Assembly (NCBI GenBank): GCA_021740845.1 | Contig: JAIOYZ010000006.1 | Coordinates: 62,001 to 126,000, forward strand | DNA from: Bacteroidia bacterium | GTDB taxonomy: Bacteria; Bacteroidota; Bacteroidia; UKL13-3 | Direction: 5' to 3' | DNA: 64,000 bases | Shown here: positions 17,690 through 19,251 of the stretch, in pieces | How positions within the stretch are numbered: position 1 is the stretch's first letter | Layout of the letters: the number at the start of each line of letters is the position of its first letter | Notes under the pieces: generated by a model | Seen by the model: the letters and a program-made list of their open reading frames with translations, nothing else | Databases searched by the model: none | Told to the model about the DNA's origin: nothing | Made by a program: the position numbers and the translations under genes

Positions 17690-18055
17690 TTAATTAATTT
17701 GAAAAATTTGTTGAATGTTTTTTGAGAATTTGGCAAATGCATAGAGGTTAAAGTAATGGAGCAATCCTAAACCTATAAGCAAAACGCCCAATCGAAAAGC
17801 AATGGATTCGAAAGCCATGAGCCATGAATCTACACTGCCAAAAAAATTTATTGAAATTACCGCATAGCCTAAATTGAGCAGGTAATAACCAATTAATAAG
17901 AATTTATTTACGCTTTGAACCAAATGAGTTTGCTGATGAAAGGCCCGCATCAAATAAACTTCACCCTTTTGGTTCAAATCTTTACCAATACCGATGGTGA
18001 TGTAAAAGGTAATGGGCAAATAAATGAGATAAGAAACTATATTGAAGGATTCCAT
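17690..18055 (-). CDS. Small membrane protein, tandem paralogue A
   Basis: A 121-residue three-helix membrane protein, paralogous to its downstream neighbour (shared IYLPIT, GYYLLNLGYA, FNLYAF). No catalytic or metal-binding residues stand out. An operator-like dyad (18105-18122), a possible -7 box (TATGTTTT on the minus strand, 18087-18094) and a full GGTTYRAACC site (18076-18085) lie in the 74 bases upstream, so this pair may have its own promoter apart from gbsR. Confidence 0.8.
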   Translation of the reverse strand: MESFNIVSYLIYLPITFYITIGIGKDLNQKGEVYLMRAFHQQTHLVQSVNKFLLIGYYLLNLGYAVISINFFGSVDSWLMAFESIAFRLGVLLIGLGLLHYFNLYAFAKFSKNIQQIFQIN

Positions 18056-18075
18056 TTCTATTGTAATTTAATTTT

Positions 18076-18085
18076 GGTTCAAACC
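18076..18085. repeat. Iterated dyad GGTTCAAACC, intergenic copy 1
   Basis: Full copy with T-rich left and A-rich right flanks (TTTGGTTCAAACCGAA), 21 bases upstream of the start of paralogue A. It sits just downstream of that gene's possible -7 box, so if a protein binds it, it could affect this promoter. Confidence 0.8.
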
Positions 18086-18104
18086 GAAAACATACTTATT
18101 ATAT

Positions 18105-18122
18105 TTTCAAGAATTATTGAAA
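18105..18122. promoter_or_regulatory. Operator-like dyad upstream of the paralogue pair
   Basis: TTTCAAGA-AT-TATTGAAA: the same 8-2-8 layout as the dyad upstream of the regulator gene, with one mismatch in the left arm. It lies 50-67 bases upstream of the ATG at 18055; the other copy lies 38-67 bases upstream of its gene. Inferred to bind the GbsR/MarR-type regulator. Confidence 0.55.
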
Positions 18123-18129
18123 CATAAGG

Positions 18130-18507
18130 TCAATAAAAAAAGGCTAATTCCTTTGCTTCTTGAAAATTTAGGTATACATAAAACACAGCCGTGATAGGCG
18201 AAAGAAATAACAAAGCAAATAAGCCAAAAAAGGTTAAAGGCGGAATTAAACCAATAAGGAAAACAAGTAAAAAATAGGCAAATATTTTCCTCTCTCTACT
18301 TTGCTTATACCCCGCCAAAAACCAATTAATAAAGAAGCTGGCTAATTGAAAAGAGCCAATTATATAGTAGAAATAGAAAAAATCATGTGACCATTTAAAT
18401 TGGCCTTCACTAATTAGTTGAACCAAGAAAGCAAAAACCACAACGCCCAATGCAATCAGTTGAATCCAGGCATCTGCTTGTTTAAAATTTCTGAATTTCG
18501 TTTTCAT
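18130..18507 (-). CDS. Small four-helix membrane protein of unknown function
   Basis: A 125-residue protein with about four hydrophobic helices, an Arg/Lys-rich N-terminus (MKTKFRNFKQ) and a basic cytoplasmic loop (KQSRERK) between helices 2 and 3. I recognise no family. Its start is 4 bases after the stop of the GbsR/MarR-type regulator, so it is certainly in that transcript. It is not obviously homologous to the two paralogues downstream. Confidence 0.78.
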   Translation of the reverse strand: MKTKFRNFKQADAWIQLIALGVVVFAFLVQLISEGQFKWSHDFFYFYYIIGSFQLASFFINWFLAGYKQSRERKIFAYFLLVFLIGLIPPLTFFGLFALLFLSPITAVFYVYLNFQEAKELAFFY

Positions 18508-18511
18508 AAAA

Positions 18512-19018
18512 TTATTTTAAGAGTTTTAATAAAGTACTAAAGAACCAACTTTCGTCGGCTTTCAACATTACCTCCACCGACTTATCCATTTTGCCTACAA
18601 AATCGCCTAAATTGGCAACGGTTTTACTAAAGGCCGCATGCTCCGGATTTTCTTTGCTACCTTCAAATTCGTTTAATTGACCCAAGACTTTAAGTACAGG
18701 TTCAATTTCTCTTCTTTTACGTTCTTTGGCAATTCTTCTGGCAATTTCCCAGATGTCTTTTTCGGCCACAAAATACTCCTTACGATCGCCAGGAACCAAT
18801 TCTTTGCTCACCAAGGTCCAGTTAATTAAGTCGCGAAGATTCATGTTTGCATTGCCGCGCGAAATGCTTAAATCTTCCATTACATCTTCGGTAGTAAGTG
18901 GTTTTGGAGAAATAAGCAACAAGGCGTGAACCTGTGCCATACTTCTGTTTATACCCCATTCGCTACCTAAAGTTCCCCAGGTTTGAATAAATTGTTTTTT
19001 TGCTTCCTCAAATTTCAT
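18512..19018 (-). CDS. GbsR/MarR-family transcriptional regulator
   Basis: A 168-residue DNA-binding protein. A winged helix-turn-helix (about residues 25-85, with TTEDVMEDLSISRGNANMN as the recognition region and a wing at VPGDRKEYF) is followed by a helical C-terminal part for dimerisation. The GbsR subgroup includes repressors of osmoprotectant genes, though in Bacteroidota these regulators sit in varied contexts. Upstream lie a perfect Bacteroidota -7 box and a long palindrome, so autoregulation is likely. It heads the set of three small membrane protein genes. Confidence 0.88.
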   Translation of the reverse strand: MKFEEAKKQFIQTWGTLGSEWGINRSMAQVHALLLISPKPLTTEDVMEDLSISRGNANMNLRDLINWTLVSKELVPGDRKEYFVAEKDIWEIARRIAKERKRREIEPVLKVLGQLNEFEGSKENPEHAAFSKTVANLGDFVGKMDKSVEVMLKADESWFFSTLLKLLK

Positions 19019-19037
19019 GTGGTGGTAATTACGAGGA

Positions 19038-19068
19038 CAAATGTATAAACACTTTTTAAACTTTCAAT
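19038..19068 (-). promoter_or_regulatory. Promoter of the GbsR-type regulator gene
   Basis: On the minus strand TACATTTG (19038-19045) is an exact match to the Bacteroidota -7 consensus TAnnTTTG. An ATTG (3 of 4 to TTTG) lies 19 bases further upstream, inside the palindrome, so a repressor bound there would cover the -33 element. Confidence 0.55.
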
Positions 19069-19093
19069 ATTTATTGAAAGTTTAATTTCAATA
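19056..19093. promoter_or_regulatory. Long palindromic operator plus extra half-site
   Basis: A perfect inverted repeat with 14-bp arms (19056-19069 and 19072-19085) around a TT centre; the core is TTTCAATA-TT-TATTGAAA. A third half-site TTTCAATA follows at 19086-19093. It overlaps the presumed -33 region of the regulator gene and has a one-mismatch sister site at 18105-18122. Confidence 0.7.
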
Positions 19094-19145
19094 AATAGCT
19101 AAAAGATTGATTGAGTGAAAAATAAAATTTCTTGCAAATAGGTTT

Positions 19146-19155
19146 GGTTCAAACC
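19146..19155. repeat. Iterated dyad GGTTCAAACC, intergenic copy 2
   Basis: Full copy with perfect extended symmetry (TTTGGTT-CA-AACCAAA), about 100 bases upstream of the alcohol dehydrogenase start. A second copy in the opposite orientation follows 43 bases later, close to four helical turns. Confidence 0.85.
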
Positions 19156-19188
19156 AAAAGCTGTTTTTAATTAAAATAATAGAAATTC

Positions 19189-19198
19189 GGTTTGAACC
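19189..19198. repeat. Iterated dyad GGTTTGAACC, intergenic copy 3
   Basis: Full copy (TTCGGTTTGAACCAAA), 53 bases upstream of the alcohol dehydrogenase ATG and opposite in orientation to the copy at 19146. The 233-base gap 19019-19251 otherwise holds the regulator promoter and palindrome described separately. Confidence 0.85.
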
Positions 19199-19251
19199 AA
19201 AACTCATTTAACAGAAAAAGGTTACTATTGATACACATAAATTAACAAACC

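Follow-up and report, generated by a model that had tools for sequence, protein, structure and literature searches.

A conserved putative operator links a GbsR-type regulator to a pair of membrane-protein genes in Bacteroidota

Genes and inverted repeats at the locus

The window, i.e., the whole 64-kb stretch of DNA that was analyzed, belongs to a 4.09-Mb genome of 66 contigs whose closest named relatives are uncultured Bacteroidota. It harbors a gene for a GbsR/MarR-type regulator (gbsR), a membrane-protein gene directly behind it, two paralogous membrane-protein genes (A and B), and two dyads (sites 1 and 2). In the direction of gbsR, the features are as follows.

19086..19097, no strand: extra half-site TTTCAATAAATA, absent from relatives
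19056..19085, no strand: site 1, perfect 30-bp palindrome with 14-bp arms and a 2-bp center, putative autoregulatory operator of gbsR
19038..19045, minus strand: putative -7 box TACATTTG of the gbsR promoter, assigned from sequence
18512..19018, minus strand: gbsR, GbsR/MarR-type regulator, 168 aa (Mj223, 1KU9, E value of 2.7e-17; CudC model, E value of 4e-12, under the cut-off; MarR_2 slightly under the cut-off)
18130..18507, minus strand: membrane-protein gene, 125 aa, 4 bp behind gbsR, between gbsR and site 2
18133..18153, minus strand: weak terminator-like hairpin with a 4-bp stem and a T-tract, just upstream of site 2; the hairpins of relatives are stronger
18105..18122, no strand: site 2, TTTCAAGAATTATTGAAA, one-mismatch copy of the 18-mer, putative operator 5' of the membrane pair
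18073..18089, plus strand: copy of an iterated motif that lies outside the regulon, within inserted sequence separating site 2 from the start of A
17690..18055, minus strand: protein A, one of the paired membrane proteins, 121 aa
17316..17672, minus strand: protein B, the other paired membrane protein, 118 aa, highly conserved, with three predicted helices

The 125-aa gene, which was missing from the initial annotation, probably shares the gbsR transcript. Homologs of its product are found at other loci, placed after site 2.

The core of site 1, TTTCAATATTTATTGAAA, lies at positions 19062-19079 and, written as halves, reads TTTCAATA-TT-TATTGAAA, an exact match to the palindrome initially described over the -33 region. 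Site 1 is the longest palindrome of the window, and an equal length was reached in none of 30 order-2 Markov shuffles. The second-longest is ACCACACCTTTCAAATGAAAGGTGTGGT (2046-2073), with 13-bp arms. In the direction of gbsR, the TTG of the -33 element falls in the right arm of site 1, and a protein residing on this site would, judging from the sequence, mask that element. Among 70 orthologous sites, the TAnnTTTG box is found 34 nt from the start of the dyad in 39 and at 33 to 36 nt in 50. In many orthologs gbsR starts approximately 5 nt past the -7 box, and this spacing suggests that gbsR leaders are very short in many relatives. The extra half-site noted beside the palindrome is indeed present, but it is not conserved in relatives.

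Site 2 ends 49 bp before the ATG of A at position 18055, in agreement with the initial description of a one-mismatch copy upstream of the tandem membrane genes. The similar distances of the two sites from their genes, which had been given weight in that description, proved specific to this genome: 40 of 50 loci in relatives have site 2 at 2 to 26 nt from the start codon, whereas here an insertion of approximately 30 nt, which holds the iterated-motif copy, parts site 2 from the start of A.

This motif is a 13-mer, TTTGGTTCAAACC (near-palindrome TTTGGTTCAAACCRAAA), present in 691 copies in the genome (designated G000), with none for the reversed control. The window contains 36 loose sites (2.1 expected), including those at 18073-18089, 19143-19159, and 19185-19201 and 30-odd more. 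Every one of the 19 genomes of the genus has a raised copy number (10 to 691), and none of the other 79 relatives exceeds 5 copies. Within the window, 23 of the 29 copies of TTGGTTCAAA are inside genes, where alignment to relatives points to substitutions rather than insertions. The 13-mer is reminiscent of DNA uptake sequences or of highly iterated palindromes. We considered it as a second operator of the gbsR system and rejected this, as it is spread genus-wide and is absent at the locus in relatives.

A scan of the whole genome with the core pattern gave 14 matches, against 6 for a control pattern. The initial annotation had looked to such a search for copies upstream of related genes. Two of the matches are the sites described here. 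Of the other 12, eight fall inside genes, one has no called gene nearby, and three are intergenic and unconvincing. Sites 1 and 2 are the only strong sites with a gene-proximal placement of this type that the scan found in the genome. Loose matches to the 18-mer in the window (six with up to 3 mismatches, 3.9 expected) are not in excess, which leaves the two strong copies as the ones that count. Given the nature of the remaining matches, we rejected a wider regulon for this genome, and the regulon here looks local.

Conservation of the dyads and their association with the membrane pair

Orthologs of gbsR were collected from 32 of 98 relatives and from 80 loci of named genomes, after which duplicate contigs were removed, and a dyad core was counted only when it was a perfect TTTCAR-N6-YTGAAA. 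The core occurs within 150 nt upstream of gbsR in 70 of 89 orthologous loci, compared to 0 of 1,447 background windows (132 nt, same loci), and between gbsR and the following gene in 50 of 91 loci, compared to 6 of 1,447 background windows (450 nt); as the sampled genomes are related, these and the other counts and probabilities serve as guides only. The initial annotation had named absence of the dyads beside orthologous genes as an outcome that would refute it, and the dyads recur. In the seven genomes of the genus that harbor gbsR, site 1 is present in all seven, and site 2 is perfect in six and one base off in the seventh. Orthologs of gbsR with other neighbors, or of other clades, lack the dyad. 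One gbsR clade (loci L025, L029, L030, L032, and L033) also lacks it and retains one half, TTTCAA-N6-CYAWAA, at a similar upstream place, possibly a diverged operator.

The operon behind site 2 differs among loci. Site 2 precedes whichever operon comes next, which encodes the membrane pair at some loci and, at others, a methyltransferase, a fatty-acid desaturase, a TIGR01777-type SDR, or a DCC1-like thiol-disulfide oxidoreductase that has a membrane part. The membrane pair had been presented as the sole target besides the regulator; this does not hold in the many relatives whose site 2 fronts the oxidoreductase, the SDR, or the desaturase. At loci L050-L057 and L070-L138, from many Bacteroidota, a conserved set lies downstream of the gbsR-site 2 unit and consists of the DCC1-like oxidoreductase with a membrane part, the TIGR01777-type SDR, a DUF2071 protein, and the fatty-acid desaturase. 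A light-response link for the DCC/TIGR01777/DUF2071 neighbors was considered and dropped, as the literature searched gave it no support.

The protein B family is present in 49 of 395 genomes of the class in a profile search. Among 43 B-bearing genomes searched, 42 harbor a match to the regulator, a weak one in G303, and only G028 is without any. In a sample of relatives, the regulator co-occurs with the pair in 17 of 18 genomes versus 15 of 80 (Fisher P of 2e-9, a guide given the relatedness of the genomes). The pair is unlinked from gbsR in 11 genomes, and in 10 of these (G069, G134, G141, G265, G279, G303, G354, G374, G390, and G411) a perfect dyad lies no more than 141 nt upstream of the pair; in G173 the dyad was not found. 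The gbsR locus, read with 1.5 kb on each side in 8 of those 10 genomes, contains no pair. In G374, gbsR and the pair are 3 Mb apart on the same contig, and the unlinked pair of G069 bears the exact 18-mer of site 1 of the window. In G028 the pair is present, and neither gbsR nor the dyad was found. Nine linked pairs (e.g., in G389 and G121) have no dyad within 420 nt upstream; some linked pairs without a dyad have a gene in between, and others (G389) have none. The sites, the overlap of site 1 with the promoter, their conservation, the association in trans, and the joint absence of dyad and regulator are established by sequence.

Proposed regulation and alternative explanations

We propose, with a probability of roughly 85%, that a single regulator acts through the two dyads on gbsR itself and on the membrane pair. 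The 168-aa GbsR-type protein would bind TTTCAR-N6-YTGAAA as a dimer. At site 1 it would cover its own -33 element and repress gbsR along with the adjoining 125-aa gene, and from site 2 it would control the operon of the two paralogous membrane proteins, most likely also by repression. A ligand or signal would release the protein, so that the regulator and the membrane proteins would be induced together. DNA binding, the sign of regulation (including that at site 2), and the signal are what we infer here. A single regulator for itself and the pair had been suggested initially from the two sites of the window, and the comparison now argues strongly for such a link, through the dyads beside orthologs, the unlinked pairs, and G028.

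The mode of control at site 2 is less clear than that at site 1, as the usual -7 box was not found at sites 2 (only 3 of 50 have one within about 80 nt). There, the dyad comes 10 to 18 nt after a terminator-like T-tract and is itself closely followed by the start codon. A roadblock, as in Bacillus subtilis GbsR, and an unusual promoter are both possible. The missing -7 box would also fit a weak promoter in need of help, and this raises the alternative that both sites are bound by the regulator, with activation of the pair from site 2 instead of repression. We consider this improbable, although it is the least improbable of the alternatives: sites 2 lie at or beyond the expected transcript start, and their usual position close before the start codon is a repression-type placement, and B. 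subtilis GbsR itself works as a roadblock (PMC7396694).

The terminator-like hairpins and T-tracts that adjoin site 2 in many loci would also suit a role in RNA, with site 2 as a hairpin or part of a terminator after gbsR rather than an operator. This is very unlikely. Site 2 shares its sequence with site 1, which precedes the transcript start; it accompanies the pair to positions that lack an upstream gbsR; and the stem in RNA would consist of just 6 A/T-rich pairs. That the dyads are chance A/T-rich palindromes, for which the chance-level number of loose matches in the window might speak, is refuted by the conservation of their position and sequence across families and by their absence jointly with the regulator. 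A different regulator could bind the dyads, with gbsR merely one target beside the pair, as the position of a dyad cannot by itself name the protein that binds it, and the three intergenic matches elsewhere in the genome could be further sites of such a protein. For a MarR-type protein, binding to its own promoter is the usual case. In addition, the dyad is tied to gbsR in most orthologous loci, the sole pair without gbsR (G028) is also without the dyad, and gbsR orthologs of other clades lack it, all of which makes a different regulator unlikely.

Relationship to known GbsR-type systems

The regulator aligns to Mj223 (1KU9) over residues 3-127, which places it by sequence, with a winged helix-turn-helix head and a C-terminal part, among the GbsR-type proteins; the Mj223 structure has served to model GbsR (PMC6207618). 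An inverted-repeat, A/T-rich operator in the promoter region, a trait of GbsR-type regulators, has its likely counterpart in the conserved TTTCAR-N6-YTGAAA. All 32 aligned members match the CudC model (NCBIfam NF047500), but weakly, and with 46.3 bits against a cut-off of 218 we ruled out that the regulator is CudC. Among the neighbors examined there were no choline/betaine synthesis or Opu transport genes, the context of the osmostress branch, and no cydAB, the context of CydE. This combination of a CudC score far under the cut-off and the lack of betaine or cytochrome bd neighbors places the regulator outside both branches with a known role. Residues Y82, F83, and W90 are conserved and fall in the region near the linker where the osmostress branch has its aromatic cage, a likeness at the level of the region only. 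A 2018 survey of GbsR-type regulators could deduce no role from gene neighborhoods for most Bacteroidetes members (PMC6207618). The present regulator appears to belong to a clade of the GbsR family that is without an assigned role and has a conserved putative operator.

Protein B gave no convincing Pfam family and no PDB match by sequence, and its predicted structure, a three-helix model of moderate confidence, gave no fold match in the PDB. We tentatively raise the possibility that the signal sensed by this GbsR clade of Bacteroidota comes from the membrane or from thiol redox and that the clade controls an as yet unrecognized envelope module, in which A and B would form a two-protein membrane complex, often with the membrane-anchored DCC1-like oxidoreductase, the TIGR01777-type SDR, and lipid-modifying enzymes. 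The regulator would control its own gene by promoter occlusion and its targets by a roadblock close to the start. The conserved operator provides a handle, as it defines a small regulon across Bacteroidota and links an uncharacterized membrane pair to a regulator.

The system resembles GbsR, OpcR, and OpuAR in its fold family, as judged by sequence, and in its A/T-rich inverted-repeat operators (PMC6207618, PMC7396694). It differs from them in the operator sequence and in its putative targets, which are uncharacterized membrane proteins and redox or lipid enzymes. CydE, a GbsR-type repressor of cytochrome bd genes, likewise adjoins its target operon (PMC6096048). With respect to operator position, OpcR of B. 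subtilis covers the -35 region, as site 1 here covers the -33 element, and the roadblock of B. subtilis GbsR is start-proximal, as is site 2 (PMC7396694).
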